A stretch of 64,000 nt of DNA. It comes from Asticcacaulis machinosus. GTDB taxonomy: Bacteria; Pseudomonadota; Alphaproteobacteria; Caulobacterales; Caulobacteraceae. Made by a program: the position numbers and the translations under genes. The stretch lies in contig NZ_JAQQKV010000001.1 of the NCBI RefSeq assembly GCF_028550435.1, forward strand, positions 1,736,001-1,800,000, in the 5' to 3' direction. Within the stretch, counting starts at the first letter, position 1. Every line of letters starts with the position of its first letter. Shown here in pieces: positions 29,135 to 53,840 of the stretch. Under the pieces are notes generated by a model. The model worked only from the letters and a program-made list of their open reading frames with translations. It made no database searches and was not told where the DNA came from.

Positions 29135-29290
29135 AAGAACTCCCCCTGCTTCAGGGGGAGCTTCTGTTTAAGCGACAGCTTAAACAGAAGAGGGGGTTAT
29201 ATGCCTCCGACTTCTGCCTCTAACCCGCCTTCATTTACCCACCTCCGGCCTAACGGCCTCCGCCTCCCCTCCAAGAGGGGAGGTTCTAAG
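29135..29290. repeat. composite palindromic repeat, copy 1 (module A minus, module B plus)
   Basis: Module A (29135-29199, minus orientation) has hairpin CTCCCCCT-GCTTC-AGGGGGAG, then stem CTTCTGTTTAAGC/GCTTAAACAGAAG, then AGGGGGTTA. Module B (29234-29290, plus) starts TTTACCCACC, holds the variable stem CCGGCC...GGCC, and ends with hairpin CCTCCCCT-CCAAG-AGGGGAGG-TTCT. Further A/B copies lie at 47096-47330 and 53681-53840. It lies between the two candidate Ada operators. Confidence 0.75.
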
Positions 29291-29386
29291 AAAACGAATC
29301 CATATTCGATAGCCTCGGTGCGCCGGGAGAGCGGTGGCGGCCGTGCCGTGGCGACCTGAAGAGGCAGCGGAAGGGGGCCTCTTTAC

Positions 29387-29401
29387 ATGTCCGAAAATGG
29401 C
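29387..29401 (+). promoter_or_regulatory. candidate Ada operator of ada-alkA
   Basis: ATGTCCGAAAATGGC, identical to the site at 29059-29073 in the opposite orientation, 34 nt before the ada-alkA start. TATGCT about 20 nt downstream could be the -10 element, so the motif sits at or just upstream of the -35, the usual place for an Ada-activated promoter. Confidence 0.7.
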
Positions 29402-29435
29402 GAGTCGATTCAACGGGACGTGTTATGCTGGCCTT

Positions 29436-30893
29436 ATGAACGATACATCAGACCTCTATTACAACGCCTCCCTTGCCCGTGACACCCGCTTTGACGGCGT
29501 ATTTTTCATGGGCGTGACTTCGACCGGGATCTACTGCCGTCCGATCTGTCCGGCCAAAAAACCAAGGCCTGATAACTGCCGCTTTTTCGACAGCGCCGAA
29601 GCGGCCGAAAAAGCTGCCTTTCGACCCTGCCTGCGTTGCCGGCCTGAACTGGCCCCCGGCCTTGCCCCTATTGATGATGCCGGACGTATCGCCAGCCTGA
29701 TCGCCCATCGTCTGGAAGAAGGTGTGATTGCCGGCGACAGCAGTTTGGAGGACATCGCTGACCAGTTCGCCCTAAGCGCCCGCCAGATCCGGCGTATTGT
29801 GCACAGCGAACTGGGCGTGTCCCCCATTGAACTGATCCAGACGCGCCGTCTACTGCTGGCCAAGCAATTGCTAACCGAAACCCGCCTGCCCGTGACCGAA
29901 ATCGCCTTTGCCAGCGGTTTTGCAAGCCTGCGCCGATTTAATGATGCCTTTCAGAAGCACTATAAACTGACACCCTCTGGTTTACGCAAAAATACGGACC
30001 AGCCCCCCGCCGATACGCTGGAGTTGCGCCTGAGCTACCGCCCGCCCTATGACTGGGACGGTATACTGGCGTTTTTGAAAGGCCGGATCATGACCGGCGT
30101 CGATGTCGTTGAGGGCGATACCTACGCCCGCACGGTTGAGATAGGCCCACATAAAGGCTGGATCAGGGTGCGGCATGCGCCCGAAAAATACGCCCTGATC
30201 GCCGAAATAGCCCCCGGTCTTTTGCCGGTCTTGCCCGCGCTTTTTGGGCGACTGAAAAACCTGTTCGACCTTCAGGCCCGGCCCGACATCATCAATGCCT
30301 GCCTGTCCGAGGATGCCCTATTGCGCCCGTGGGTGGAGCTTAATCCGGGCCAACGCGTGCCCGGCGCTTTTGACGGATTTGAGATGACCATGCGCGCCAT
30401 TCTGGGTCAGCAGGTCACGGTCAAGGCCGCCACCACCTTATCATGCCGCTTTGCCGATGCGTTTGGGGAGAGCGTGCAGACGCCCATTTCCGGCCTCACA
30501 CGCTTAAGCCCCAGACCGGAACAGATTGCCGCTGCAACTGTGGATGACATCGCGTCACTGGGCATCATAAGCCGGCGCGCCCAGTGCATGATCGCGGTGG
30601 CGGAGGCAGTGTGCGCGGGCACCTTAAGTCTTGAGGCCGGGATCAAACCCGATAAGGTTATCGCGCAACTGACGACCATTCCCGGTATCGGGCCGTGGAC
30701 CGCGCATTATATCGCCATGCGGGCATTGCGCTGGCCGGATGCGTTCCCAAAGGAAGACATTGCCGTGCTCAATAATCTCAGCCACGGCTTGCCCCAGCGC
30801 ATCACGCCGAAACAAGCTGAAGCCGCCTCCCAAAACTGGCGGCCGTGGCGCGCCTATGCCGTCATGCACATCTGGAACCGGCCAGCGGATTGA
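29436..30893 (+). CDS. Ada-AlkA fusion: methylphosphotriester sensor, AraC HTH, 3-methyladenine glycosylase
   Basis: A 485-residue protein. Residues 5-75 are the Ada zinc domain with C34, C38, C65 and C68; C34 is the expected methyl acceptor from DNA phosphotriesters. Residues 85-185 are two AraC-type HTH units. Residues 195-300 match AlkA_N. Residues 310-485 are the HhH-GPD glycosylase, with hairpin IPGIGPWTAHY (415-425) and catalytic D441. So one protein senses methylation, activates transcription and excises 3-methyladenine. I chose the ATG at 29436; a longer frame from 29334 crosses the operator. It faces the ogt operon. Confidence 0.92.
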   Translation: MNDTSDLYYNASLARDTRFDGVFFMGVTSTGIYCRPICPAKKPRPDNCRFFDSAEAAEKAAFRPCLRCRPELAPGLAPIDDAGRIASLIAHRLEEGVIAGDSSLEDIADQFALSARQIRRIVHSELGVSPIELIQTRRLLLAKQLLTETRLPVTEIAFASGFASLRRFNDAFQKHYKLTPSGLRKNTDQPPADTLELRLSYRPPYDWDGILAFLKGRIMTGVDVVEGDTYARTVEIGPHKGWIRVRHAPEKYALIAEIAPGLLPVLPALFGRLKNLFDLQARPDIINACLSEDALLRPWVELNPGQRVPGAFDGFEMTMRAILGQQVTVKAATTLSCRFADAFGESVQTPISGLTRLSPRPEQIAAATVDDIASLGIISRRAQCMIAVAEAVCAGTLSLEAGIKPDKVIAQLTTIPGIGPWTAHYIAMRALRWPDAFPKEDIAVLNNLSHGLPQRITPKQAEAASQNWRPWRAYAVMHIWNRPAD

Positions 30894-31005
30894 CACCACC
30901 CTTGCCAAGACCGCGTTAAGTCCGGTATCAGCATAAGCGCTTTCCAAAAAGTGTATGCGGTTTTTGGATCCAAAAGCGCGACAAAACATAAGCATGGAGG
31001 TGAGG

Positions 31006-31698
31006 ATGAGACGTCATTTTCTAATGGGTACGCTGGCTCTGGCCGCCACTCACCTGACCGCCTGTTTTCAGCCGCCGCAAGCCGCGAAAAAACCGGAACC
31101 TAAAAAACCGGCAGTCATGCCGACACCCCCGCCTCCGCCCCCACCGCCGGTCTTGCCTGATATTACCACCGTGGCGCTTGAGACTTCAAAAGGCGAGATC
31201 GTCGTTGAGCTTTATGGCAAGAAAGCCCCGATCACGGTTGCTAATTTCCTGCGTTATGTCGATACAGGTAAGTTCGAGGGCGCCAATTTCTGGCGGGCCA
31301 TGAAGTCCTATAAGGGCGGCTTTGTGCAGGCTACCGCCAACGGCCACAAATTCGCACCCATTACTCATGAATCGACCAAGATGACCGGCCTCTCCCACAC
31401 TGACGGCACCATTTCTATGGCGCGTTATGATGTCGGTACGGCCTCCAACGGCTTTACGATCTCGGTCGGCGACATGACCTATATGGATGCGGGTCAGGAT
31501 GATCCGGATGGTTTCGCAGCCTTCGGTAAAGTCACCAAGGGCATGGATGTGGTCAAAAAAATCCTGAACGGCAAGATCACCAAGGAAAAATTCGAAAGCG
31601 GCTGGGACGGGCAAATGCTGGCCGAACCGGTCACCATCCTGTCGGCCAAACGCATAGACGGATCAAAACCACCGGCACCGGTGACGACGCCGGATTAA
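31006..31698 (+). CDS. cyclophilin-type peptidyl-prolyl isomerase lipoprotein
   Basis: A 230-residue exported cyclophilin. The signal ends in a lipobox (LTAC, cysteine at residue 20). A proline-rich linker with eight prolines in a row (about 42-53) precedes the isomerase domain. VALETSKGEIVVELYGKKAP, ITVANFLRYV and GTISMARY follow the family pattern, with R in FWRAM as the catalytic arginine. It would help fold envelope proteins. GGAGGTGAGG directly before the ATG at 31006 decides the start. It is convergent with the phosphoesterase gene, three bases away. Confidence 0.87.
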   Translation: MRRHFLMGTLALAATHLTACFQPPQAAKKPEPKKPAVMPTPPPPPPPPVLPDITTVALETSKGEIVVELYGKKAPITVANFLRYVDTGKFEGANFWRAMKSYKGGFVQATANGHKFAPITHESTKMTGLSHTDGTISMARYDVGTASNGFTISVGDMTYMDAGQDDPDGFAAFGKVTKGMDVVKKILNGKITKEKFESGWDGQMLAEPVTILSAKRIDGSKPPAPVTTPD

Positions 31699-31700
31699 AC

Positions 31701-32471
31701 CTATTTCGTGTGCGTCAGGGCCTCGAAGGTTGTGAATGCGCCCTTATCGTACCTGAGCATATCAATACGCACGCTGGTGGGGGCGAAATTAAGGATATTA
31801 AATCCGTGCGGCTGTCTGCGGATGCGGTGCGACATGCCGGTCGAGGCATTGAGAAACAGGGTCGTATGCCCGGACGTAACGCGTGGTTCGATATAGGCAT
31901 GATGCTGATGCCCGGCCAGTACGACATCGACCTTAGCCTCATCGACCGCCTCTAAAAACCGCCGCACATTAAACAGGCTGACATCGAGCGGGAAATCCTT
32001 GGAATTCATGGCCGGATGATGAACCGCAACCACCCGCCACGGAGGGGTTGAGGCCGCAAAGGTGCGTTTGATATCACGACACTGGCCACGACTTATGGAG
32101 CCATTGGCCCAGTTCCAGTGGGGCAGGATCATGCGGGCCGAATTTATGCCCTTAACCTGCACCAACGCCGACTGAAACTGCGGGTTCAGTTCCTGAGCGA
32201 TGAAGCGCTTGTAGCGGCCAAACGGGCTGATGAAGCGCTCCAGGTCCATACCGGGCAGGTCGTGATTACCAGGTATGCACAGTAACGGACAGGTCAGCTT
32301 GGAAAAGAAGGCTTGCGCCTGTTCAAATTCATCAACGGTCGCCGACTGAGTGATATCGCCGCTGGCAATGATCAGATCAAGCTCGGCCCCGTTCAGATGC
32401 ACCAGCAAGGCATCGCGCACCTCATCTTCGTGGGCGCCGAAATGCAGGTCGGAAATGTGGGCTATCCTCAT
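31701..32471 (-). CDS. metallophosphoesterase (calcineurin-like)
   Basis: A 256-residue phosphoesterase. The metal ligands read D8-x-H10 (ISDLHFG), D39 (SGDIT), N69-H70 (PGNHD), then AVHHP and AGHQHH. No signal peptide is seen, so it is cytoplasmic. Related proteins hydrolyse cyclic nucleotides or phospholipid head groups. It overlaps the lipid kinase-like gene by ATGA at 32468-32471, and a lipid-linked substrate is a reasonable guess. Confidence 0.87.
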   Translation of the reverse strand: MRIAHISDLHFGAHEDEVRDALLVHLNGAELDLIIASGDITQSATVDEFEQAQAFFSKLTCPLLCIPGNHDLPGMDLERFISPFGRYKRFIAQELNPQFQSALVQVKGINSARMILPHWNWANGSISRGQCRDIKRTFAASTPPWRVVAVHHPAMNSKDFPLDVSLFNVRRFLEAVDEAKVDVVLAGHQHHAYIEPRVTSGHTTLFLNASTGMSHRIRRQPHGFNILNFAPTSVRIDMLRYDKGAFTTFEALTHTK

Positions 32472-33388
32472 ACCGCCTCCGCCGCTTTTGGCTGCGGAAC
32501 CAACATCTGGATATGATGTGGCTTAATCGTAAACACCAATGGCGTCATCAGTTCAGCCACCTCGCCGTCGATTGACACCAGTTCTTTTTTACGGTGGGTG
32601 TTAAGCGACATGCGCTTACCGACCTGTTCAGACATGTCGGGATCTTTCAGCCAGTTCCCGACCATCAGCCGCAGCAATAACCGTAAATGTGACCAGCGCG
32701 ATTTAGTGGTCGAGGCATAGATCGCCAGTTCCCCGCCCTGCAAGCTCTCGCGCTTAAAATTACTCTCAGTCCAGCTTGTGGTTTCGGCAAAGCGATTGTT
32801 CGAGATCACTACCGCTGCGGCCCGGAACTTTAGACGCGCCCCGTCGATCTGAAGCCTGATGCGCTGGCGCTTGTTCTTATCCAGATGATCAACCACAAAC
32901 AAAAACAGGCGCGGAATCAGCAGGAAATTATAGCGGGTGCGGTTTTCTTCGCGAAAGACCGACGCCTGCGGCATGGTGCCAATGCTGGCGCAGCACAGGA
33001 ATAGCTCACCATTGACGAAACCTGCATCAACATCCTGAATGTCATGGCCTTCGGCATAGGCCGTGAGTGCGGCCTGAAGCGAGTTGAGGTTAAGATCCTT
33101 GGCCATCAGGTTCATGGTGCCGAACGGCAAAACACCAAAGGCTTTTTTCTTGCCCACTAAAGCCGCAGCCATTTCGCGGATGGTGCCATCACCCCCGCCG
33201 ATCAGCAACGGCGCATCTGATTTGGCAAATCGCATAAGGGTTTGCGCCATATCGTCGGGTTCGCAGAAACACAGCTCCGCAACCGCGATGCCGCTGGCCT
33301 CGATCGCGCTCTCAATGGCCGGCTGGCCCATATTCAGCACCGTGCCGGAACGGTTATTAATCAGTATATTAAAGCCCGTATCCGCCAT
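32468..33388 (-). CDS. diacylglycerol kinase-family lipid kinase
   Basis: A 306-residue member of the DAGK catalytic family (YegS/BmrU-like). GGGDGT (64-69) is the nucleotide-binding signature and PFGTMNLMAKDL (88-99) the second conserved block. The C-terminal half is the beta-sandwich of this family. It would phosphorylate a lipid such as diacylglycerol at the membrane. It is the first gene of a coupled pair with the metallophosphoesterase, which makes a kinase/phosphatase duo. Confidence 0.85.
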   Translation of the reverse strand: MADTGFNILINNRSGTVLNMGQPAIESAIEASGIAVAELCFCEPDDMAQTLMRFAKSDAPLLIGGGDGTIREMAAALVGKKKAFGVLPFGTMNLMAKDLNLNSLQAALTAYAEGHDIQDVDAGFVNGELFLCCASIGTMPQASVFREENRTRYNFLLIPRLFLFVVDHLDKNKRQRIRLQIDGARLKFRAAAVVISNNRFAETTSWTESNFKRESLQGGELAIYASTTKSRWSHLRLLLRLMVGNWLKDPDMSEQVGKRMSLNTHRKKELVSIDGEVAELMTPLVFTIKPHHIQMLVPQPKAAEAV

Positions 33389-33468
33389 GTCGCCTCTCAG
33401 ATCATTGACCTTGAGAATGGCATATCTATTTGTAAATATTCAATAATGCCTGTGACTTTAGAGGCAGT

Positions 33469-33897
33469 TCAGCCTCTGGGCATCAGCCGTAACAGGGCCA
33501 GCATTTCGCCCAGCACATCGAAATTGACCGGCTTGACGAGGTGCAGGTCAAAGCCCGCTTCAGCGGTTTTACGGCGCATAGCGTCATCGCCCCAGCCGGT
33601 TTGGGCAATAATTTTCACGCTGCGGGTCTCATGCGCCGCGCGTAAGGCCTGACAGACAGCAATGCCATCCATGCCAGGCATACCGATATCGAGCAAGATG
33701 ACTTCGGGTTTGAACTCACGCGCGATCTGGAGGGCGGTCGGGCCGTCATAGCAGGCCAGAACTTCATCGCCCCAGCCTTCGATTGCCCATTTCAGCGTCA
33801 TGGCCGACTGACGATTATCATCAACCACCAGAACCCGCAGCCCGTTCTCAGACAGACCTTCTGGCCATGCCGCATCATCCGCTACACTTACGTTCAT
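33469..33897 (-). CDS. single-domain response regulator (CheY-like)
   Basis: A 142-residue protein with a short N-terminal tail and one receiver. D26/D27 form the acidic pocket, D70 (LLDIGMPGMDG) is the phosphoacceptor, T100 and K122 (LVKPVNFD) complete the active site, so it looks fully competent, unlike the receiver at 25849. No output domain. AGGG before the ATG at 33897 favours this start over one 18 codons upstream. No kinase is adjacent. Its partner is not readable. Confidence 0.87.
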   Translation of the reverse strand: MNVSVADDAAWPEGLSENGLRVLVVDDNRQSAMTLKWAIEGWGDEVLACYDGPTALQIAREFKPEVILLDIGMPGMDGIAVCQALRAAHETRSVKIIAQTGWGDDAMRRKTAEAGFDLHLVKPVNFDVLGEMLALLRLMPRG

Positions 33898-34106
33898 CAC
33901 CCTAACCAAAGCCTTATCTGTCGCGACCCTGCCGTAGCGACACGAGATCACTTAGACGCCTGTCTATAAAAAATCAGTAGGGTAGCCCTGCTTTGGCCGA
34001 AATTTCGTCTTACGAGCATTTTTCTTCGCTGCTTATAAGTTTTAACGTCCCGGAAATGACGTTTTGATAAGCTGTGATAGCGTTCATTTAACCGTGGTTT
34101 AGCCTA

Positions 34107-34310
34107 ATGTCGTTTTTGTCTCGCCTCTATATGCCCAAGAAACTGATGATCGCCGCCTGGGTCATGATCGCGACCCTGTGTCTGGCCATGACGGCTCAGT
34201 ACATCTGGCATGTGGACACGATCCGCTACGTCATGACGGTGGTTTACTATCTATTGCTCGATTATGCCTGGGCCAATATCCGCCGTGAGTGGCAAAGACT
34301 CGAGGATTAG
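34107..34310 (+). CDS. small membrane protein, unknown
   Basis: A 67-residue protein with two hydrophobic segments (about 10-30 and 38-55) and basic ends, so probably an inner-membrane protein. The ribosome site is weak. The frame ends just before a strong terminator that belongs to the opposite strand. I do not recognise the family. The hydrophobic pattern and good codon use make it likelier real than chance, but it is a moderate call. Confidence 0.5.
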   Translation: MSFLSRLYMPKKLMIAAWVMIATLCLAMTAQYIWHVDTIRYVMTVVYYLLLDYAWANIRREWQRLED

Positions 34311-34318
34311 TTTCTCGC

Positions 34319-34345
34319 AAAAAAAACGAGCCGTTCTGGCTCGTT
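34319..34345 (-). terminator. rho-independent terminator of the EF-hand gene
   Basis: On the minus strand AACGAGCC-AGAAC-GGCTCGTT is followed by a run of eight or more T. It lies 12 nt after the stop of the EF-hand gene at 34357 and is a classical intrinsic terminator. Confidence 0.9.
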
Positions 34346-34356
34346 CTCGTAGCGGT

Positions 34357-35130
34357 TTACGCCGCCACCGATGTGGTCGAGGTCTGTTTCGTGCCTTCCG
34401 ACAGGGCCTGATAGACCGAGGTCATCCACTGGGCGGTCAGGCTGGCGATTTTCGCGGCAGTGTCTTCGCTGACGGTCGCATCGCTTGTGGCGGCTTCGGT
34501 CGATGTGGTCTCAGACATCATTGGGGGTGGCGGCCCCTTCGGCGGGCCATTAGCCTTCATGGTTTCGTCAAATGCCGCCTTTTCCTCCTCAGTTACCGAA
34601 CCATCACCGTCGGCATCCATGTGGCTGAACAATTCCTCGATCATGGACGCATCCGCACTGTCCTCAGATTCTGATGAGGCCAGCATTTCATCAAGACTGA
34701 CCGTACCGTCCTGATTGGTATCAAGTTCATCAAAAGTTTGGGGGGCCTGACCACCACCACCACCACCGGCAGGTGGCGGGCCGGACGGACGTGATCCGGC
34801 GCCTTGGCCTTCTTCCTGAGCCTGCAACATGCTGCCCATAGTCGCAGATGACATGGAACTTGTGAAAAACGCCAGACCTTCTTCTTCGGTGACCGAACCG
34901 TCACCATCGGTATCCATGACCGAGAACCGATCCGCCGCCGAAGACGTTGCGGAAGACGATGCCGTAGCACCGGATTGCGTCTTTCCGGATTTACTAGTGG
35001 CCTGCGAAGACTCCAGTTCTTCCAGGGTCATTTTGCCATCCCCGTCGGCATCAATGCTGCTGAACAGCTTTGAGTGCATCTGCGACAGAGAGACGCTGGA
35101 ATAGGCAGATGTCGTACTACCGATCTGCAT
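34357..35130 (-). CDS. four-EF-hand calcium-binding protein
   Basis: A 257-residue protein with four canonical EF-hand loops: D27-E38, D73-E84, D137-E148 and D172-E183, each of the DxDxDG form with glutamate at position 12. Between loops 2 and 3 is a flexible Pro/Gly-rich stretch, and a Thr/Ser-rich tail follows. There is no Sec signal, although the N-terminus is Ser/Thr-rich. Perfect AAGGAGG at 35130. Calcium binding is well supported, the role is not. It is divergent from a second, secreted EF-hand protein. Confidence 0.85.
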   Translation of the reverse strand: MQIGSTTSAYSSVSLSQMHSKLFSSIDADGDGKMTLEELESSQATSKSGKTQSGATASSSATSSAADRFSVMDTDGDGSVTEEEGLAFFTSSMSSATMGSMLQAQEEGQGAGSRPSGPPPAGGGGGGQAPQTFDELDTNQDGTVSLDEMLASSESEDSADASMIEELFSHMDADGDGSVTEEEKAAFDETMKANGPPKGPPPPMMSETTSTEAATSDATVSEDTAAKIASLTAQWMTSVYQALSEGTKQTSTTSVAA

Positions 35131-35445
35131 ATTTACCTCCTTTTTTGAGTTTCGGCCCAATCGCCAAAACAAATAAAAAAGGCCATCACTTACTTAACAA
35201 CATGTTGAATTAACAACAATTTCATCAATTACACAAAATCATGTCCATACATATCAACATACAGCCAACAAGCACTCATTTATGTCATCGAATACACAAA
35301 AATATGCAGATACTATCCGGCACAATTTACCGGTCTGCATATTTTTCGCGCTCAGTCTTATTATTTCCTTACGGACATGAAATCACCATGAAATCCCCGC
35401 ACAGCTCAGCTTAGTTTGATGCGTTTACTGACAACGGAATAACCC
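35131..35445. other. 315-bp AT-rich divergent gap between two EF-hand genes
   Basis: The gap is notably AT-rich. It holds a 13-bp perfect inverted repeat (35298-35310 with 35334-35346; arm AAAAATATGCAGA) and the palindrome CAACATGTTG near 35203. AAATATGCAGAT in the left arm is identical to 12 bases that cover the translation start of the minus-strand EF-hand gene (35125-35136). Confidence 0.6.
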
Positions 35446-42644: not shown

Positions 42645-42707
42645 TCTTCTTTACTTATGCAATTGTGAATTTACTACGAAAAGCAGATAGGCATTTGGAC
42701 ATAAAGT

Positions 42708-42845
42708 AAGGGCCTGTCTGAGGGGGATAATCTCTGACAGGCCCTTCTTTGTTATGCAGGCGTTTCCTCCCCGAAACGCCGGGAACCGACTTTCCTCTTC
42801 GGGGGAAAGTTCCGTTCTCTTGAGACCGACAAAACAGTTTTTCGG
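42708..42845. ncRNA. hairpin cluster, candidate small RNA (strand unknown)
   Basis: Four hairpins follow one another: AAGGGCCTGTC/GACAGGCCCTT (42708-42746), GGCGTTTC/GAAACGCC (42759-42780), ACTTTCC/GGAAAGT with a C-UUCG-G tip on the plus strand (about 42783-42817), and CCGA/TCGG (42826-42845). A TTGACA on the minus strand at 42852-42857 could be a -35 element for a minus-strand RNA that ends after the first-listed hairpin. The UUCG tip argues for plus. I do not recognise the RNA family. Confidence 0.4.
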
Positions 42846-42973: not shown

Positions 42974-42977
42974 GAAT

Positions 42978-45050: not shown

Positions 45051-47195
45051 CTTCATCATTTTAATGACGTCATCCTTATTCAGCAGTTGCGGCAGGATAA
45101 CCGGCTCGGCGCCATTCGGGCCATACCAGACATAGAGCGGCACACCCGAGCGGCCATAGCGGCTGAGATAAGCCGAGATACGCGCATCCTGATTGGTCCA
45201 GTCCCCTACCATATAGACCGTATTGGTGGCCTTCAGCACCCTGGCGAAATCTTCGGTATGGAACACCAGCCGCTCATTGACCTTGCACGACACGCACCAG
45301 GCCGCCGTCAGATCGACCATGACATTCTTACCCTCAGCCCGCAGTTGGGCGATGCGCTCGACCGAAAAGGCTTCATAGGGTACATCGGCCTTTATTGCGG
45401 CGGGTGTGGTCACCGCGCGGGTTTGAGCCGCCGAGGCCACCGCCAATACAATCCCCAACCCCAGCAAAACCGGACGCGTGACGGCGGGTATGAGTGTGCG
45501 CACGACACCAAATACAATCAGCCCAAGGGCTATGATCAACGCAAACAGGCCAAAGCCGGAGACCTGCTGGGCAAACACCCACACCATCCAAAGGGCTGCC
45601 AGATACATCGGCACGGCCAGAATATGCTTGAATTTATCCATCCACGGGCCGGGCTTAGGCAGGCGTTTGGCCAGTCCGGGCAGATAGGTAATGGCGTAGG
45701 TCAGGCCTACGATCGGCAGGGCAAACCCGATGCCCAACGCCAAAAAGATCACAAAGCTGATGAACCCGCCCTGGGCCAGAGCGACGCCGATGGCGGTGGC
45801 CATAAATGGCGCTGTGCAGGGGGCGGCGACCACGACCGCCAGCACGCCAGTCAGGAACGCACCGATGTAGGGGTTCTTTCCAACCGTACCGCCACCCAGA
45901 TTTTGTAGTCCCGAACCGATATTAAACAGGCCTGACAGATTAAGCGCGACCAGCAGCATGACAATGCTAAGGGCTGCCGTCACAAACGGCGACTGCAACT
46001 GAAAGCCCCAGCCAAGCGCCGCACCCAAGGCTTGCGCCACGCTGATCATCACCGCCAGCGCCACAAAGCTTATGATCACGCCCGCCCCGTACAGCAGGGC
46101 CTCATGGCGGGCCAGACGATGATCATGCCCCGCCCGCGATACCGCCAGTATCTTCATGGACAGGATGGGAAAGACGCACGGCATCAGGTTGAGAATAATC
46201 CCGCCGACAAAGGCCAGCCCCGCGGCGATAATCACCCCCACGACGGACACCTCACCCGTTGCCGCGCTTAAGCCCCCAAGCCCTCGTAAACTCAGCGGGA
46301 TATCGCCTTCATTGAGCGTGACCTGATAGCTGTCACCGTTCGGAAAGGCGACTACACCGGAGATGGGCCCCGACACAGGCTTATCGTCTGCTGTCGTGGC
46401 CCTGAGTGTAAAGCCGTCCGCCCCAGTGTCGAGCGCCTGAGCCGCAGCGGGCGGGACGGCGCCGGCGGTAATCGGAAAGAAATAGGCGCCATTTGGCTTT
46501 TCGAAAATTTCGGAACTATCAGGCGCCGGAAAGCCTAATTCGAGAACATTACCAGTTTTACGGAAATATCCAGCCGGGGCCGATTTCGGCAGGGCCTCAA
46601 ACGCCTTCTGAAAGGCCCGATCTTCGCCCCCGGAAGGCCCGACCGGCAGATTAAGACTGACAGTGACCGTTTCCGGTACGCAAACTTTTTCACAAACCAG
46701 AAAATCAACACGCGCCTTGAGCGGCAGTATATCGCCGTCAGTAAGCGCCGTGCCATTGGTCAGTTGGTAAAAGAGGTAGGTTTCCCCGCTATAGCCGTAA
46801 TTGACCAGCCCCATATAGGGCTGACGCTCCGGCGTTTGCCACTGCGGCTCCCCCACCGTCACCTTATCCGGCAGCGACCAGGTGACCACAGGTGCCAGCC
46901 CCGTATCGCCAGGATTTTGCCAGTAGGTATGCCAGCCCTTAAGCGGCTCATGGCGGATGGCGATCCAGATGTCGCCGCCTTTGGAGACCGCTTTGCGTTC
47001 AGACACCAGTTCGGTCGTCAAGTGCGAGGTCTTGACGGGCTGAGCCTGAGCGGGCGCAAATAACACCGCAATAAACAACAAAAACCACTGAACTAAAGAA
47101 CTCCCCCTCTTGGAGGGGGAGCTTGAGTTTGATGATAGATCAAAATCAAGAGGGGGTAAAAACGGCCCGCACACTATCCCGTCACTCTGCTTCAT
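45039..47195 (-). CDS. DsbD/ScsB-type protein-disulfide reductase; 5' end runs through a repeat
   Basis: Up to 718 residues. The periplasmic N-terminal part (to about 300) carries a cysteine pair (LVCEKVCVPE). Then come about eight membrane helices with two transfer cysteines (NLMPCVFP; AAPCTAP), and a C-terminal thioredoxin domain with AAWCVSCK. It passes electrons from cytoplasmic thioredoxin to periplasmic proteins, as DsbD or ScsB does. The start is doubtful: an ATG at 47195 adds about 36 residues encoded by repeat module A (47096-47162). The likely signal peptide, LVQWFLLFIAVLFAPAQA, begins right after the repeat, and its basic KRG lead comes from repeat sequence. Confidence 0.88.
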   Translation of the reverse strand: MKQSDGIVCGPFLPPLDFDLSSNSSSPSKRGSSLVQWFLLFIAVLFAPAQAQPVKTSHLTTELVSERKAVSKGGDIWIAIRHEPLKGWHTYWQNPGDTGLAPVVTWSLPDKVTVGEPQWQTPERQPYMGLVNYGYSGETYLFYQLTNGTALTDGDILPLKARVDFLVCEKVCVPETVTVSLNLPVGPSGGEDRAFQKAFEALPKSAPAGYFRKTGNVLELGFPAPDSSEIFEKPNGAYFFPITAGAVPPAAAQALDTGADGFTLRATTADDKPVSGPISGVVAFPNGDSYQVTLNEGDIPLSLRGLGGLSAATGEVSVVGVIIAAGLAFVGGIILNLMPCVFPILSMKILAVSRAGHDHRLARHEALLYGAGVIISFVALAVMISVAQALGAALGWGFQLQSPFVTAALSIVMLLVALNLSGLFNIGSGLQNLGGGTVGKNPYIGAFLTGVLAVVVAAPCTAPFMATAIGVALAQGGFISFVIFLALGIGFALPIVGLTYAITYLPGLAKRLPKPGPWMDKFKHILAVPMYLAALWMVWVFAQQVSGFGLFALIIALGLIVFGVVRTLIPAVTRPVLLGLGIVLAVASAAQTRAVTTPAAIKADVPYEAFSVERIAQLRAEGKNVMVDLTAAWCVSCKVNERLVFHTEDFARVLKATNTVYMVGDWTNQDARISAYLSRYGRSGVPLYVWYGPNGAEPVILPQLLNKDDVIKMMKSGA

Positions 47196-47330
47196 TACCC
47201 CAACTGCCCTTTTAGCAGGGCTATCGCGTACTACTTATACGCACAAAACCCGAGTTTTAACCCCACCCGTCATCCGGTCCTAGAGGATCGTCTGCCACCC
47301 TACCCTGAAATCAGGGGAGGGTCTTTTTAT
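47096..47330. repeat. composite palindromic repeat, copy 2 (A minus, B plus)
   Basis: Module A (47096-47162, minus) has hairpin CTCCCCCT-CTTGG-AGGGGGAG, variable stem CTTGAGTTTGAT/ATCAAAATCAAG and end AGAGGGGGTAAA. Module B (47255-47330, plus) has TTTTAACCCCACCCGTCA, variable stem ATCC/GGAT, and final hairpin ACCCTACCCTG...CAGGGGAGGGT with a TCTTTTTAT tail. B abuts the ispG stop and could act as a terminator. Spacer between modules is 92 bp and holds the putative dsbD-like ATG. Confidence 0.75.
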
Positions 47331-48473: not shown

Positions 48474-48537
48474 AGACCACCTCTGTTACCTGCCCCCTAC
48501 TTAAGGCCTTTTGGCCCGTAATAAAAGAGGCAGAGAC

Positions 48538-49815
48538 CTAATAAGGTATGGTCTGATCGGCTGGTGGTTGGGCCGGTTGCGTCTGGACAGGTTGAGCCGG
48601 CTGATAGGGGATTGGCTCCGTCGGCATGGGCCGCGCTTTCGGCTTTTCGATTTTGGGCCGCGGTGTGGCTACCGGGCGGGCCTCGACCTGCTGGGCATCC
48701 ATTAGCTTGGCCGTCTGCTGGGCGCGGGCATTGATGCGGGCGGTCGGCGTAGTGTTGCCTTCTAACCCACCTGCATATTCGCCGTCGTAATAGACTTCAA
48801 ACGCCGTGGCGTCCGATACGTCGACCAACATCGGCACCGCCGTCGCATTGGGGACACGATAAGATTCCCCGGCCCCTAACTGACGGGCAAAATAGACCTG
48901 TCCCTCATTGGAGCGCAGCACCAGATTGACACTGCGCCTGGCCTGAATGACCACGCTGGATTGCTCCGGCGGGGCCCCAAAGACGGCTCCCTTTGGGTTA
49001 AAGGCCTTACGCATCTGAAGGCTGTCCGATGGTGACGCCGCCCCCGTCCCGTTACGAACTTTCTCGGCCTCAATCTCAGCAAATCCGGCCTCAAGGCCCG
49101 GTGTGACATACGGCACAGGCACATCCTGATCCAGTGGCGGCGCACCGGGTTTGGACACATAAACCACCCCATCGCGCACGATAGGCACCCCCTGCGACCA
49201 GCCCTGTGTAGTCACAGTCGGCGCTTCGGGTTTGGACTTAAACAGCTCCGGTTGCCGCTGGACGACGTTCCACACAATAATGGCCCCGACCAGCGCCACC
49301 GCACCGGCAATATAGCGGCCATAGGACGGTTTTACTTCATCCATCGCGGCACCTGTGGGCGCACGCAAGGCCGGGCCGGGATCGGCCAGATCACGTTTCA
49401 GCAAATCGGCCATGGTTTCTTCATCCAGCCCCAGCGCCTTGGCATAGGCCTTTACGTAACCAATGGCAAACGGGCGGGCCGGCATGAGATCAAGCGCGCC
49501 GGTTTCAAATGCTTCAAGGTAACTGCGGCGAACACGGGTAATATCGGCCACATGATCAAGGCTGAGATTTGAGGCTTCGCGCGCCGAACGCAAAATGTCA
49601 CCAAGAATGACACCGTGATGCGGATCGTCATAGGCTGAGCGTGGATTAAGATCAGACGCCAGCGGCTCACCCGCCAGCGTCACCGCCGCAGCCGCCGCCT
49701 CAACAGCGTCATACTCCTGATACTGATCCTGCGTCATCTTACCCTGATACTCACTTTCGGTATTGAAGGTGCCCATGCCCAAAGACTGGGTATTCTTCAA
49801 AGACTGGGCACTCAT
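48538..49815 (-). CDS. RodZ-like cytoskeletal/HTH membrane protein
   Basis: A 425-residue protein. A polar N-terminal extension of about 70 residues precedes an HTH of the RodZ type (ILRSAREASNLSLDHVADITRV, about 73-95; ARPFAIGYVKAYAKALG). One membrane helix follows (IAGAVALVGAIIVW, near 170), then a periplasmic part with a DUF4115 domain (VVIQARRSVNLVLRSN...) and a Pro/Gln-rich tail. RodZ links MreB to the wall machinery and keeps cell shape. The ispG neighbour supports the call. The N-terminal extension and long proline-rich tail are more than E. coli RodZ has. Confidence 0.85.
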   Translation of the reverse strand: MSAQSLKNTQSLGMGTFNTESEYQGKMTQDQYQEYDAVEAAAAAVTLAGEPLASDLNPRSAYDDPHHGVILGDILRSAREASNLSLDHVADITRVRRSYLEAFETGALDLMPARPFAIGYVKAYAKALGLDEETMADLLKRDLADPGPALRAPTGAAMDEVKPSYGRYIAGAVALVGAIIVWNVVQRQPELFKSKPEAPTVTTQGWSQGVPIVRDGVVYVSKPGAPPLDQDVPVPYVTPGLEAGFAEIEAEKVRNGTGAASPSDSLQMRKAFNPKGAVFGAPPEQSSVVIQARRSVNLVLRSNEGQVYFARQLGAGESYRVPNATAVPMLVDVSDATAFEVYYDGEYAGGLEGNTTPTARINARAQQTAKLMDAQQVEARPVATPRPKIEKPKARPMPTEPIPYQPAQPVQTQPAQPPADQTIPY

Positions 49816-50084
49816 TTTCCGATACTCCCGACAAGAACACAGGCTGTTTTCAGAATCAATACAACCTCACTGACGATGACATGATTGCACCGCTTTGAAA
49901 CAGGTTTTTTGAGCGGGTCCAACCTGAAGTGACACGCTTCAAAACCCGCGCCAAGGTTTAGCGCACCTTTGTGACGAATATTGCTCCGCCACACTGTCCG
50001 CCTGTGCATAACAGCCATTGCCGCCGGGCTAAACTCAGCTTAAAGACAATCAAAAGCCTTATATAGCTACACGGAGTTTTACCC
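49816..50084. other. 269-bp divergent gap, nothing distinct
   Basis: The region between rodZ (minus) and the 139-residue gene (plus) must hold two promoters. I see no clear palindrome, repeat or small gene. Confidence 0.3.
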
Positions 50085-50504
50085 ATGCCCGCTGCCTTTG
50101 ATGACTTATGGATCGGTCAGGTCGCCTCAATCGGCGCCGGCGTCATCAGTCAGGAGGACCTGGAGGCATTTTGTAAGACCTACGCGCCGACCTGGGACTT
50201 GAAAGAAGGCATACCCGACGCCCTGATCTTTACCCTGTGGTCGCGACTGGAAACCGAAGCCTCGCAAAGCTGGCCGCAAACCAAGCGCCTGGCGGTCGAT
50301 GCCCTGCGCTGGTCGCGCAATCCGCCGCCGGGCGAACTGCTGCGCGGACGCCTGACCGTGATGGGCAAGGATGCGGTTGGAGACACCAAGGGCGTGGTTA
50401 TTGCCCAACACGACCTGTTGGATGAGGCCGGACGGCTGGTGTTTTCATGCCTGACGCGTTCGGTGTTTCAGCGACTGCCGGTGGCCAAGCCGCCACTGGA
50501 TTAG
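50085..50504 (+). CDS. conserved-looking hypothetical protein
   Basis: A 139-residue soluble protein; GGAG lies before the ATG. The course of the sequence (an early AFCKTYAP segment, then PGELLRGRLTVMG and GVVIAQHDLLDEAGRLVFSCLTRSVF) recalls hot-dog MaoC-like proteins, but the catalytic motif is not evident, so that is a weak guess. Monocistronic; followed by a palindromic repeat at 50599. Confidence 0.65.
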   Translation: MPAAFDDLWIGQVASIGAGVISQEDLEAFCKTYAPTWDLKEGIPDALIFTLWSRLETEASQSWPQTKRLAVDALRWSRNPPPGELLRGRLTVMGKDAVGDTKGVVIAQHDLLDEAGRLVFSCLTRSVFQRLPVAKPPLD

Positions 50505-50598
50505 ACTCACCCATAAGTTTTTCGCTGCTCGAAAATACTGATGGGTGGATACTCTATGAGAAATTTTTCTTGAGGCGGCTCTGCGAAAAACTCCACAC

Positions 50599-50674
50599 TT
50601 TTACCTCCCCGGCACGCCGGGGAGGGGGACCGCACGAAATCGCAAAGCGATGAGATGTGGTGGTGGGGGCTCTT
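50599..50674. repeat. solo palindromic repeat related to module B
   Basis: TTTTACCTCCCCGG-CAC-GCCGGGGAGG forms the outer hairpin. A small variable stem (ATCGC/GCGAT) and GTGGTGGTGGGGGCTC follow. The order matches module B in minus orientation, but the ends differ more, and no module A is next to it. It lies just after the stop codon side of the aminotransferase gene. Confidence 0.5.
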
Positions 50675-50680
50675 AAACGC

Positions 50681-52072
50681 TTACAACGCCCGCAGTTTCG
50701 GCTCAGCCTCATTGAGCGACTGTTCGATAATGTCGACGATTCGGTCGATTTCTTCATGGGTGATGATTAGCGGCGGACACATGACGATGCTGTCGCGGAT
50801 ACCGCGCACCATCAGGCCGTTCTTGATGCACAGGTCGCGCACCAACGGGCCAGCGGTGCCCTCCTTGCCACCAAAGCGATGGTTAGTGCCTTTTTCAGCG
50901 ACGATTTCAACTGCCCCAATCAGGCCGAGCGAGCGCGCTTCACCGACTAATGGATGCGCATCCAATCGCTTCAACGCCTTGGCCAGATAAGGGCCGGTGT
51001 CGTTACGGGTGCGCTCGACCAAGCCTTCGCGTTCGATAATCTCGATATTGGCCAAAGCCACCGCCGCCGCCGCCGGATGGCCGGAATAGGTGTAACCGTG
51101 GACGAAATCACCGCCGGTTTTCAGGACATCGACGATCTTTGACGACACCCCGACCGCCGAAATGGGTAGGTAACCCGACGACAACCCCTTAGCCATCGCA
51201 ATCACATCCGGTTTTATGCCATAATGCTGATGGCCGAACCATTGGCCCAAGCGCCCAAAACCGCAGATGACCTCATCACAGATCAGCAGGATACCATATT
51301 TACGGCACAGGGCCTCAACCTTGGGCCAGTAGCCTTCCGGCGGAATGATTACCCCGCCCGCACCTTGCACCGGCTCACCAATAAAGGCGGCAACCTTATC
51401 CGGCCCCACGGACAGAATACGGGCTTCGATATCATCAACGCAGGCTTGCGTGAACGTCGCCGGGTCTTCGCCAAAGCCTTCGTTGAACGCATAGGGTTGG
51501 CGGACATGCTCAATGCCCGGCACCATCGGCCCGCCCTGAGCGTGCATAAAAGTCATGCCGCCAAGGCTCATCCCCGCGACCGTCGAGCCGTGATAGGCGT
51601 TGCGACGGCTGATGATGATATTGCGGTCCGGCTCGGCCTTAAGCTGCCAGTAATAGCGCACCAGCCGCAGCACTGTGTCATTAGCCTCTGACCCGGATGA
51701 GTTGAAAAACACATGCTGAAGGTCAGGATTACCGACCGACATCTTCTCCGCGATCTTGGTGGCCAGCCTGACCGGCGGCGGGGTCACGGTCTTGAAAAAC
51801 GTATTGTAATAGGGCAGTTCCAGCATCTGCTCATAGGCGGCGCGCGCCAGTTCATCGCGCCCGTAACCGACATTGACGCACCACAGACCCGCCATACCGT
51901 CCAGCAGACTGTGCCCTTCGCCGTCATAGATGGTGGAACCTTCGGCGCGGGTAATGATGCGCGACCCGCCGATATCTTCCAGCAGCTTATAGTCCGCCTG
52001 CGCCGGCAGATGATGCGCCAGATCAAGGCGTTTCAGTTCGGCAATATCGTAGTTTTTAAGCGGCCGGTTCAT
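50681..52072 (-). CDS. class III aminotransferase, putrescine/polyamine type (SpuC-like)
   Basis: A 463-residue PLP enzyme. PLP lysine K295 (AMAKGLSSGYLP), D266 (CDEVICGFGR) and the phosphate-binding NSSGSEAND (124-132) are in place. Its closest look is the omega-aminotransferase group with putrescine-pyruvate or beta-alanine-pyruvate activity (SpuC-like). It sits at the end of the polyamine region, 57 nt behind a 32-bp palindrome with the TGTGATCACA core. It could deaminate putrescine or GABA; which one is not readable. Confidence 0.85.
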   Translation of the reverse strand: MNRPLKNYDIAELKRLDLAHHLPAQADYKLLEDIGGSRIITRAEGSTIYDGEGHSLLDGMAGLWCVNVGYGRDELARAAYEQMLELPYYNTFFKTVTPPPVRLATKIAEKMSVGNPDLQHVFFNSSGSEANDTVLRLVRYYWQLKAEPDRNIIISRRNAYHGSTVAGMSLGGMTFMHAQGGPMVPGIEHVRQPYAFNEGFGEDPATFTQACVDDIEARILSVGPDKVAAFIGEPVQGAGGVIIPPEGYWPKVEALCRKYGILLICDEVICGFGRLGQWFGHQHYGIKPDVIAMAKGLSSGYLPISAVGVSSKIVDVLKTGGDFVHGYTYSGHPAAAAVALANIEIIEREGLVERTRNDTGPYLAKALKRLDAHPLVGEARSLGLIGAVEIVAEKGTNHRFGGKEGTAGPLVRDLCIKNGLMVRGIRDSIVMCPPLIITHEEIDRIVDIIEQSLNEAEPKLRAL

Positions 52073-52128
52073 GGGGCAAACTCCCGTAAGATTAATTGCA
52101 AACAGGTCTGCCAGAAATTTACGCCCAC

Positions 52129-52160
52129 GCCAATAAAATTGTGATCACAATTTTATTGGC
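52129..52160. promoter_or_regulatory. perfect 32-bp palindrome with TGTGATCACA core
   Basis: Every base from 52129 to 52160 mirrors, with the centre at GATC (52143-52146). The core TGTGATCACA (52140-52149) recurs at 58145-58154 and 59672-59681, each ahead of another polyamine gene. The outer arms GCCAATAAAAT/ATTTTATTGGC could also form an RNA hairpin. The stop codon of the DUF1835 gene lies inside the palindrome. Confidence 0.75.
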
Positions 52161-52953
52161 TGAGATTTCGAGGCCACCGCAGCCAAGTCTGCATCGAGAT
52201 ATTAGCAACACGTTTTGTCTCGACAACGCCAACATCTACCAAGTCTTGAAGTCGACAGCGCAGCACCAAATCACTCGTTTGAAAAACACCATCGTTACGC
52301 AACATGTCGGCCATTACATTCCCGACCACGCGGCGCGCCTGCACCCATCGGGTGTTAATGTGACTCAAAAGTTCGTCATCAAAATAATCAAGCGAAGCGG
52401 ACATCAGACCTTCAGCAGCAACAACCCGCATCGGGGCATTTTCCTCACGTAGCCTGCCCCACAAACTCAACCACGTGTTCAGTTCCTCCTTAGTCGCTGG
52501 CCGTGCCTGATCCCAAAAAGCTTCTGATACAAATTCGCTGGCTCTGACCAAGGATACGCACCCAACCCGTGCCCTTCGCCCCGAAGCTATGGTCACATAA
52601 CTCTCAGTCAGATCGACAAACTCAAAAGACTGGTCGCCGTTTCGGCGCAGCCATTCCAGAAAATTACAATATTCCCTAGGTTGACGGCGTGAGAACCAAA
52701 CGACCCGACGATGATCAGGCTTTAGTGATCTTTCCCAAAAACCTTTGATCTGGTCATCCCAGTCTTGATCGGCATAGCCCCACGCAGCCTCAACATAAAC
52801 CCTACGCAATTCTGCGTCAGCAGGCGGCCCAAATGACCAGTCATCATCTAAACCAATAACATCTTCATCCTTACCCACAGTTTGCAGGGCGCGGCGCAAA
52901 TCAACGGTCGCAGATAAACTGAACACGATATGCAATGTGCGGCGATCAATCAT
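52153..52953 (-). CDS. DUF1835/DUF3658-like protein in the polyamine cluster
   Basis: A 266-residue protein. LHIVFSLSATVDLRRALQTV and DDDWSFGPP match the start of DUF1835 domain proteins; the C-terminal third fits the DUF3658 partner domain with a helical end. No enzymatic motif is known to me. Its ATG overlaps the puuD stop (TAATG at 52951-52955), so it belongs to the operon, and its stop lies in the 32-bp palindrome. Why such a protein is coupled to puuD is unclear; codon use looks like its neighbours. Confidence 0.7.
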   Translation of the reverse strand: MIDRRTLHIVFSLSATVDLRRALQTVGKDEDVIGLDDDWSFGPPADAELRRVYVEAAWGYADQDWDDQIKGFWERSLKPDHRRVVWFSRRQPREYCNFLEWLRRNGDQSFEFVDLTESYVTIASGRRARVGCVSLVRASEFVSEAFWDQARPATKEELNTWLSLWGRLREENAPMRVVAAEGLMSASLDYFDDELLSHINTRWVQARRVVGNVMADMLRNDGVFQTSDLVLRCRLQDLVDVGVVETKRVANISMQTWLRWPRNLSQ

Positions 52954-53678
52954 TAAACTACCGACTCACCGCGCGCCGCCTGACCCAACCACTGGAAAAA
53001 AGCCTGCCGGTCGGGGTAATCTTTGGGCCGCCATTCCGGGTGCCACTGCACGGCCACGACCTGCGATCCGCCGAGGTTGGCGCTAAACGCCTCAACAATG
53101 CCGTCAGGCGCCACGGCCTCCATCGTCAGGCCATCGGCCAGTCGCGCCACCCCCTGAAAATGCACCGAATTGACCCACAGGTTGCCACCTAGTTTTTCCT
53201 CAAAAAAACCGCCGTCGATCAGGGTCACATCATGGCCAAACTCAAACATGTCGTTGAAAGTGGCAGTGTCCGGCGCGTGATGCCTTGGCCCCAGATCACG
53301 CCGGAGCGTGCCCCCCAAGGCGACATTGATCTCCTGAAAGCCTCGGCAGATACCAAAAACCGGCTTTTGAGCGTCGATCATGGCCTCGATCATCGCAAAG
53401 GAGATGCTGTCCCTGTCCACATCAAACGGGCCTTCGCCCGCCGCCGTATCAGGGTCATAAAACCGCGTGTCGATGTTGGAGGTCGATCCGGTCAGCATCA
53501 GGCCATCCAGCTTCCCCGCCAGCGTTTTGGCTTCAAACCCTGTGGTGATCGCTGGGATCAGCACCGCCAGACAGTCGGCATATTCGATGACGCCTTTGAC
53601 ATAGCGATCCTTGACGGTCTGAGCGTTTTCACCGCCGACATCACGGTTACAACAGGAAATACCGATCAGGGGTTTCAT
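52953..53678 (-). CDS. puuD: gamma-glutamyl-GABA hydrolase PuuD
   Basis: A 241-residue class I glutamine amidotransferase-like hydrolase (peptidase C26). C111 (GICRGFQEINVA), H213 and E215 (QWHPEW) form the triad. It splits gamma-glutamyl-GABA into glutamate and GABA, the last step of the Puu putrescine pathway whose first enzyme is PuuA at 58174. It overlaps the DUF1835 gene. The composite repeat lies between it and the upstream ATPase gene. Confidence 0.9.
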   Translation of the reverse strand: MKPLIGISCCNRDVGGENAQTVKDRYVKGVIEYADCLAVLIPAITTGFEAKTLAGKLDGLMLTGSTSNIDTRFYDPDTAAGEGPFDVDRDSISFAMIEAMIDAQKPVFGICRGFQEINVALGGTLRRDLGPRHHAPDTATFNDMFEFGHDVTLIDGGFFEEKLGGNLWVNSVHFQGVARLADGLTMEAVAPDGIVEAFSANLGGSQVVAVQWHPEWRPKDYPDRQAFFQWLGQAARGESVV

Positions 53679-53680
53679 AA

Positions 53681-53840
53681 GAAAGAACCTCCCTTGTTGC
53701 AGGGGAGGGTAGCAGGCGGATTTATCCGGCTGACGGGTGGGGTAAAAAGCGGCGGCGTGATAAGTTTAAACAAGCAATTTACCCCCTCTTTGCGTGCATT
53801 TGCCCGCAAAGCTCCCCCTGCAACAGGGGGAGTTCTTTCT
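53681..53840. repeat. composite palindromic repeat, copy 3 (B minus, A plus)
   Basis: Module B (53681-53748, minus) has hairpin CCTCCCT...AGGGGAGG, variable stem GCGGAT/ATCCGG and GTGGGGTAAAA. Module A (53778-53840, plus) has TTTACCCCCTC, variable stem CTTTGCG/CGCAAAG and end hairpin CTCCCCCTG-CAA-CAGGGGGAG-TTCTT. This is the reverse complement order of copies 1 and 2. It fills the gap between the Pot ATPase and puuD; the ATPase stop touches its right end. Confidence 0.75.

Follow-up and report, generated by a model that had tools for sequence, protein, structure and literature searches.

Our results suggest that the paired palindromic repeats of this Asticcacaulis genome probably belong to a small mobile element, of which they are non-autonomous copies; in the autonomous form a DUF559 nuclease gene would lie between one module and a second, inverted module. 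Taken together, the architecture of the modules, the covariation of their stem, the mirror rule, the linkage to DUF559, the insertion polymorphism and the lack of a Y1 transposase are best read in this way. The window, that is, the whole 64-kb stretch of DNA that was analysed, carries three such loci, each of them composed of two modules placed foot-to-foot:

29135..29198, plus strand: module A of pair 1, with the AGAA end, hairpin 1 at 29140-29160, then stem 2 and the foot GAGGGGGT; mirror rule 8/8
29235..29288, minus strand: module B of pair 1, its foot shorter by one G; mirror rule over 6 positions
47096..47158, plus strand: module A of pair 2; mirror rule 8/8; three relatives are without the stretch
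47258..47325, minus strand: module B of pair 2, decayed, with mismatches in the hairpin, fold z -0.7 and the strict triplex motif absent
53683..53745, plus strand: module B of pair 3; mirror rule over 6 positions
53780..53837, minus strand: module A of pair 3; mirror rule 8/8
53679..53848, no strand: the whole insertion that makes up pair 3, 170 bp in this genome versus 10 bp (TTAACTTAGG) in G060, G089 and G121

The positions and orientations that the first-pass annotation had given for the three A/B pairs, including the reversal of the third, were all confirmed, while its spacers of 34, 92 and 29 bp became 36, 99 and 34 bp with the refined module boundaries. The string TTTACCCCACCCG, which it had listed as part of the repeat, is exact at locus 3, but locus 2 reads TTTAACCCCACCCG and locus 1 reads TTTACCCACCTCCG. 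When the DNA folding was compared with that of shuffles, five of the six window modules gave z values from -3.5 to -7.7, the exception being the B module at 47258-47325. At the gathering threshold no Rfam family covered the modules; the two Rfam matches in the window were a cobalamin riboswitch and CrfA. Note that the window contains no DUF559 gene, so the link to DUF559 is invisible from the window alone.

Across the host genome we counted 142 modules, 96 of which make 48 foot-to-foot pairs (30 AB, 11 AA and 7 BB). The unit is therefore any two modules and not a fixed A plus B. The proposal that A and B behave as one unit was thus right in that the pair acts as a single mobile unit, as seen from the empty sites in relatives, and wrong in that the A/B combination is not obligate: 18 of the 48 pairs are AA or BB, and 46 of the 142 modules are outside any foot-to-foot pair, some of them because a DUF559 gene sits between two modules. 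The A hairpin pattern is present at 54 sites in the 3.77-Mb genome and its backwards control pattern at none, a frequency that is not due to chance. The module consensus (47 A and 16 B modules) ends in AGAAC, and in both A and B the bases just outside hairpin 1 are AGAA/TTCT. In module A, loop 1 is short and the second spacer is a stem of about 30 nt. Among the 47 A modules, both sides of this stem 2 had changed in 206 cells, compared to 54 in shuffles, with 97.6% of the cells paired. Just 12 of the 573 paired cells were G-U, which disfavours an RNA-level reading of stem 2.

The module pairs are mobile. Relatives showed empty sites opposite pairs of 140-170 bp: at the site of pair 3 (53679-53848), three relatives have 10 bp instead, and a fourth carries a pair of another family. 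The stretch holding pair 2 is missing in three relatives. Moreover, a DUF559 element is present, inverted or cut down to a lone palindrome among relatives, two of which hold a lone palindrome where others hold the DUF559 element. No target-site duplication was visible at four junctions (our own 53679, our own pair upstream of L059, G068 and G060), although the divergence of 8-17% limits this result.

In most families the inner foot mirrors the G-arm of the hairpin, as is characteristic of a purine-motif intrastrand triplex. A perfect mirror foot was found in 140 of 187 flank modules, compared to 32 with a direct repeat, 5 with a copy of the C-arm and 3 with a mirror in shuffled tails; the direct-repeat and C-arm descriptions of the foot were rejected since the mirror fits better. 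Within the window, the order pyrimidine arm, purine arm and third-strand block, with the G.GC and A(T).AT rules, holds at 8/8 positions in the A modules and over 6 positions in the B modules of pairs 1 and 3, and fails in the B module of pair 2. These patterns suggest that the modules could fold as triplexes. For the E. coli motif, a stable triplex was not observed in vivo (PMC4666352).

The host genome encodes ten DUF559 nuclease genes, eight of which are enclosed by inverted modules of this architecture, two of these eight being flanked by two A modules. Using as threshold the 99th percentile of 628 shifted control positions (15.5), flanking inverted repeats exceeded the control at 101 of 115 DUF559 loci (8/10 of our own, and 66/76 and 27/29 in two further sets), the sampled loci being best protein matches and not random DUF559 genes; the 14 loci below the threshold include our own L058 and L064. 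Outside the family, 20 of 28 DUF559 loci from the phylum were above 15.5, and 18 were above 17.5, the 99th percentile of their own control. The left and right flanks of one DUF559 gene belong to one repeat family, with an observed median of 34.0 against a swapped-flank median of 11 and 99th percentile of 34, the control coming from an earlier run of the flank test in which some coordinates were wrong. The strict triplex motif reached 2.26/kb at up to 400 bp from DUF559 versus 0.08/kb more than 1 kb away, and 209 feet face the gene while 88 face away; at 36 of 166 DUF559 loci the strict motif is missing from these 400 bp. In 119 family genomes the number of hairpins tracks that of DUF559 genes (rho 0.61, within-genus permutation p 0.0005). 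No such trend was seen in genus g7, and some genomes without DUF559 are rich in hairpins (G084, 212; G088, 166; G075, 105). DUF559 proteins that are at least 70% alike have a common repeat (median similarity 0.83), and below 70% protein identity protein and repeat agree only weakly (rho 0.14, Mantel p 0.007), so that no argument is built on this range. A literature search that had most subscription papers outside its reach and did not combine BoxC/PIT with DUF559 found no DUF559-repeat link, which may be in print elsewhere; the accessible part of the RepRanger paper (PMC12306157) does not mention RAYT, nuclease or transposase.

DUF559 is here a single domain of about 120 aa, encoded between the hairpins. 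Its predicted structure (pLDDT 92) has I-Bth0305I and 3hrl among its best structural matches. The fold comparison gave E 5e-4 for the homing endonuclease I-Bth0305I and 0.1 for Vsr, and the remote sequence similarity to I-Bth0305I had an E of 2e-4. Residues E20, D49, E60, H66 and D75 are invariant in 45 DUF559 sequences. As modelled, DUF559 has a nuclease fold together with the kept acidic and histidine residues of the EDxHD/Vsr-like nucleases.

Could the DUF559 genes instead be passengers, or repair nucleases kept by the host, caught between repeats that spread or change because triplex-prone DNA undergoes replication slippage and illegitimate recombination? We consider this unlikely, although it has some points in its favour: such motifs have been tied to genomic instability, with stalling and slippage suggested (PMC4666352), the DUF559 protein VsrA of C. 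crescentus has been interpreted as a mismatch-repair nuclease (PMC12907096), and some DUF559-free genomes are rich in hairpins. However, slippage deletes or alters repeats and would hardly create pairs of 140-170 bp at sites that are empty in relatives. Nor does it fit with the two flanks of one DUF559 gene being a single family (34.0 against the swapped median of 11) with feet mostly facing the gene.

Much less probable is that the modules are REP doublets of the REPIN/RAYT kind, whose Y1 (HUH) transposase has since been lost here or acts elsewhere. The doublet layout is that of BIMEs and REPINs, and 14 of 28 Y1 loci in the family have flanking inverted repeats above the threshold, so inverted-repeat flanks are not unique to DUF559. 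However, the PF01797 (Y1_Tnp) profile had no match in the host genome, while control genomes were positive, and a RAYT partner in this genome was rejected. Y1_Tnp is present in only 20 of the 119 family genomes; across all 119, the number of hairpins does not track that of Y1 genes (rho 0.11, p 0.22), and the module consensus has no GTAG tag beside the palindrome.

The modules were also judged to be more than the ordinary lone terminators that the first-pass annotation had named as its alternative. That they are plain bidirectional terminators or mRNA-stabilising hairpins under selection is the poorest of the explanations and very improbable: hairpin 1 plus TTCTTT does look terminator-like at 47099-47123 and 53813-53830, but such sites are barely more numerous than in shuffles (11 versus 7.1, sd 2.9), the ORFs on either side of pair 1 diverge, and the new insertions are left unexplained. 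Furthermore, according to PMC4666352, purine-motif triplexes are impossible in RNA and PIT elements showed no terminator activity, which with the few G-U pairs points to a constraint on DNA.

If the pairs are indeed non-autonomous copies of DUF559-nuclease elements, DUF559 would recognise, cut and mobilise the modules. Each module would be a DNA fold made of a C/G hairpin, a second stem in which sequence is free and pairing is kept, and an inner G-rich foot, which, mirroring the hairpin's G-arm, would lie there as the third strand of a purine-motif triplex. The substrate would be the folded single strand or an extruded duplex, plus the AGAA/TTCT outside hairpin 1, on which the Vsr/EDxHD-like nuclease encoded between two modules would act, cutting the element ends and the target. 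Host repair or replication would then copy the entire foot-to-foot unit into a new intergenic site, with no target duplication; alternatively, the copy could land in a resident hairpin through homing-like repair. For the gene-less pairs, the nuclease would be supplied in trans.

What spreads the triplex-type (TM/BoxC) repeats was left open in PMC4666352, and what moves the CGTC REPs, seemingly without a dedicated transposase, in PMC3733652. The DUF559 nuclease may be the missing partner spreading this common kind of bacterial repeat, and the DUF559 link makes it possible to test directly how triplex-type repeats spread, using a single small protein and short oligonucleotides. The DUF559 link, if true, would assign a function to many proteins of a domain so far without one, account for the inverted and often unlike pairing of such repeats, and provide bacterial palindromes with a mobilising enzyme unrelated to RAYTs. 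On a wider claim we are evenly divided. By this claim, DUF559 nucleases would form a new class of mobile elements reduced to the minimum, in which a pair of triplex-forming hairpins encloses a nuclease of about 120 aa and the folded strand serves as substrate for transposition, and they would be the dedicated enzymes responsible for a large part of the G/C-rich palindromic repeats (BoxC/PIT/TM and kin) that bacteria carry, in lineages ranging from Caulobacteraceae to Deinococcus and cyanobacteria.

Finally, the statement that no described family has this A/B layout did not hold, since the BoxC/PIT/TM repeats and the REP doublets (BIMEs) are close relatives. In E. coli K-12, BoxC/PIT/TM forms five close inverted pairs, each of a type A and a type B motif, and PMC4666352 reports no mobility genes and no transposase or integrase remnants near the motifs. 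As in our modules, these repeats are intergenic and multicopy, occur as close inverted pairs of two types and vary in presence by strain, and their class II has a 5' pyrimidine arm, a purine arm and a purine third-strand block on the 3' side. They differ in that their close pairs join unlike types, whereas here 30 of 48 are AB and AA and BB pairs exist too; their second loop, as searched in ITxF, has 1-6 nt and ours is a long covarying stem; the arm sequences are not the same (CTCCCCCT, CCTCCCCT in our modules); and the pair described here is flanked by AGAA/TTCT and has a DUF559-coding form (PMC4666352).

MITEs are likewise short and non-coding, with inverted ends and insertion polymorphism (PMC10969869). 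No target-site duplication was seen at the four junctions read here, where a divergence of 8-17% limits the comparison. The CGTC REPs are mostly alphaproteobacterial and mainly head-to-head dimers, frequently heterodimers, with no dedicated transposase found (PMC3733652); they carry a CGTC tag and one stem of 8-9 bp whose first pairs are A-T, and the module consensus has neither. The REP doublets, BIMEs and REPINs with their RAYT (TnpAREP) also join two inverse palindromic units into one mobile non-autonomous unit, rarer copies of which flank the enzyme gene (PMC8266576, PMC3733652). In contrast, each of our modules combines two stems with a mirror foot and lacks the GTAG tag, the genome has no Y1 transposase, and the linked DUF559 nuclease is of another fold. 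Although DUF559 is found here outside introns and without extra DNA-binding domains, and its nuclease activity is predicted, it has a common fold and remote sequence similarity with the EDxHD homing endonucleases (I-Bth0305I) and Vsr (PMC3943268).

Base-by-base reading resolved each of the three repeat loci of the window into two modules set foot-to-foot, the foot being the inner G-rich end. An A module runs AGAA, hairpin CTCCCCCT-loop-AGGGGGAG, a variable second stem and the foot GAGGGGGT; a B module runs AGAA, hairpin CCTCCCCT-loop-AGGGGAGG, a second stem and the foot GGTGGGGT. Certain loops of hairpin 1 are common to both types, and the A hairpin pattern was found at 54 sites in the genome, compared to 0 for the backwards pattern. 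The three pairs and other features of the window are listed here (G060, G068, G089: genomes of relatives).

12288-12471, + strand: cobalamin riboswitch (Rfam match, 122.5 bits)
29135 (start): pair 1
42699-42819, - strand: Caulobacter sRNA CrfA (Rfam match, 47.7 bits; gathering 38)
44508: about 4.75 kb extra in G060, G068 and G089
47096-47325: pair 2
50604-50624: one more strict triplex-type motif, with hairpin CTCCCCGGCACGCCGGGGAG, where neither an A nor a B module was recognised
52159-52952: 794 bp in the window, 7 in G089
53679-53848: unit with pair 3
59692-60892: 1201 bp in the window, 16 bp in G060, G068 and G089

Inspection of 50 hairpin copies was followed by a stricter pattern, which yielded 47 A modules plus 17 B modules adjoining them, and two covariance models were built from alignments of 47/47 A and 16/17 B modules. 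Searches of the A. machinosus genome scored the best 150 of 1081 and the best 150 of 1966 candidates, so weak copies may be absent from the count; they returned at least 89 and at least 93 matches, merged into at least 142 modules. By the better score, the 142 listed are 73 A and 69 B. Foot-to-foot pairs (48) hold 96 of these 142, and 80 of the 109 listed modules of at least 45 bits, while three neighbouring pairs among the listed modules lie hairpin-to-hairpin. The first-pass annotation had suggested that the two parts of a composite A/B repeat move or are kept as one unit. The scan did not find A and B mostly apart; nor did it find a fixed A/B unit, the 48 pairs being 30 AB, 11 AA and 7 BB. 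Note that six 'unpaired' modules flank DUF559 (small nuclease domain) genes face to face (C1:1509207/1509644, C3:85188/85622, C2:424539/424986).

With the structure imposed, 97.6% of the cells of stem 2 are paired, and 206 are altered on both sides, compared to 54 in shuffles. Its covariation score is 0.525 against 0.10 in shuffles and at most 0.103 when the partner is slid by 1-3 columns, although the structure was derived from the same sequences, which favours it over the slid versions. G-U pairs make up 12 of 573 paired cells by manual count.

The 53679-53848 unit is absent from G060, G089 and G121, where 10 bp stand in its place, and in G068 a pair of another family occupies the site. Similarly, the stretch holding the 47096-47325 pair is absent from G060, G068 and G089, this site being less clean because the intergenic region has otherwise diverged. 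Upstream of the L059 locus lies a 148-bp pair, from a third family, that four relatives lack, and G060 has one further pair that is absent from G068, G089 and the host genome. The DUF559 element of L059 is present in G089 and inverted in G121; at its place G060 and G068 have a single palindrome, possibly what is left of an element or possibly a target site. In the case of L056, homology of four relatives stops at the left element edge, and the right flanks are unlike or rearranged. No target duplication was seen at the four insertion junctions inspected, as far as 8-17% divergence allows. The window up to 41490, including pair 1, did not chain with the G060 and G089 stretches. The place of the 53679-53848 unit looks like an insertion hot spot: there and at the same place in L209, pairs of different families lie just before a start codon in two species. 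Hairpin-like sequence is also present near this place in four more distant relatives (L211-L214).

Two A-A pairs each enclose a 121-aa ORF that proved to be DUF559 (PF04480, E 1e-25). There are ten DUF559 genes in the host genome, where a search found no Y1_Tnp, the transposase domain of RAYT (REPIN) systems and the rival partner for such repeats. By reading, the flanks of these genes carry modules of one build in differing sequence families; at L058 the module pair is on one flank only, and at L064 the left and right modules are unlike each other.

We then aligned locally the 400 bp upstream of each gene with the reverse complement of the 400 bp downstream, at 121 loci: 10 from the host, 1 viral contig and two sets of best protein matches (best 80 of 474; best 30 of a longer list), leaving out 6 with too short a flank. 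The threshold, 15.5, was the 99th percentile of 628 shifted positions from the same loci (maximum 17.5). It was exceeded at 101/115 DUF559 loci (host 8/10, the two sets 66/76 and 27/29). The true flanks had a median score of 34; flanks swapped between loci, run with a few coordinates off, had a median of 11 and a 99th percentile of 34. Flanking inverted repeats are expected at RAYT loci, and 14/28 Y1_Tnp loci of the family exceeded 15.5 in the same test; thus, DUF559 is not the only kind of gene with flanks of this sort. In a phylum sample of 150 genomes, 22/30 DUF559 loci scored above 15.5, or 20/28 after removing two of the host family, and 18/28 outside the family exceeded 17.5, the 99th percentile of that sample's own control (144 positions, maximum 34.5). 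A plasmid collection had 37 records with a DUF559 match; among 15 loci examined, 10 exceeded 15.5 and 8 exceeded 17.5. Those above threshold include two Deinococcus, two Sinorhizobium and one Pseudanabaena; scores fell below it in Azospirillum brasilense, Methylobacterium, Synechocystis, E. coli and Photobacterium, and were marginal in N. gonorrhoeae (16.0) and Picosynechococcus (17.0). A DUF559 gene splits a transhydrogenase cluster in S. parapaucimobilis and catabolic clusters on two Deinococcus plasmids. On a Pseudanabaena galeata plasmid (L270 1388-5300), the DUF559 part and its flanking repeats lie within a long annotated CDS next to brxC, as an element seated in frame in a gene would. 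In Photobacterium sp. GJ3 (L272 2887-4436), dense triplex-type motifs adjoin a DUF559 gene without a flanking inverted repeat by score. Repeat-flanked DUF559 genes also occur in MAGs labelled, perhaps wrongly, Parcubacteria, Phycisphaerales, Chitinophagaceae and Chloroflexi (L130, L138, L140, L143).

Across 119 family genomes, DUF559 is present in 90 and Y1_Tnp in 20. The number of hairpins (CTCCCCN{3,14}GGGGAG) followed that of DUF559 genes (rho 0.61; within-genus permutation p 0.0005) and showed no relation to that of Y1 (rho 0.11, p 0.22). The median was 75.5 hairpins in the 90 genomes with DUF559 and 8 in the 29 without, although hairpin-rich genomes without DUF559 also exist; genus g7 has no trend (rho 0.00), and that of genus g2 is negative and not significant (rho -0.48). 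Among 74 loci, DUF559 proteins at least 70% alike have their repeat in common (41 pairs, median similarity 0.83, part of them the same site in sister species), and those less alike agree weakly with it (rho 0.14, Mantel p 0.007). At L059 and L060, different sites of one genome, the proteins are 77% alike and the A module is common to both (0.97).

In most modules the foot mirrors the G-arm of its hairpin. Among 214 pyrimidine-first flank modules, 187 had an arm that is not self-mirror and a long enough tail; with A and T interchangeable, the mirror was perfect in 140 of these, compared to 32 for a direct copy and 3 for shuffled tails. By distinct arm, the mirror was favoured in 24/28 and the direct copy in 1, with 3 ties (Wilcoxon p 5e-5), and perfect mirrors occurred with 78% of own tails against 6.6% of tails from other-arm modules. 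Arm G stood opposite G at 1157/1170 positions and arm A opposite A or T at 309/320, counts taken from mirror matches of at least 0.85 alone and so biased in favour of the rule. In the window, the three A modules obey it over 8 positions and two B modules over 6, and the B module at 47258 does not fit at all. This is the pattern that governs a purine-motif triplex whose third strand is antiparallel. At 166 loci, 297 strict triplex motifs lie within 400 bp of DUF559 (2.26/kb), compared to 33 at more than 1 kb (0.08/kb). Motifs stand on both flanks at 83 loci, on one at 47 and on neither at 36, and 209 feet face the gene against 88 facing away.

An AlphaFold2 model of the DUF559 protein, from 45 sequences, had a mean pLDDT of 92. 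Its top Foldseek match was 3hrl, an uncharacterised Neisseria protein, and the second the catalytic domain of the homing endonuclease I-Bth0305I; several mitoribosomal proteins, PvuRts1I and, weakly, Vsr came lower. Sequence profiles matched 3hrl, PvuRts1I and I-Bth0305I.

In summary, the repeat pairs are real and lead to a system. That the module pairs are mobile, and that coding versions of them carry DUF559 genes, is well supported. Linkage, co-occurrence and fold suggest, as the likeliest reading and a reasonably probable one, that DUF559 moves the pairs.

Among known DUF559 proteins, CCNA_02930 (VsrA) of C. crescentus is reported to cause an SOS response on loss of the methylase ScmA (PMC12907096). 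The mirror rule was noted from the flank modules before we met PMC4666352, where such motifs are called BoxC/PIT/TM. According to that paper, purine-motif triplexes are impossible in RNA, the E. coli form makes a triplex in vitro and no stable one in vivo, transposase/integrase remnants were not found near the motifs, and close inverted pairs join type A with type B in 5/5.
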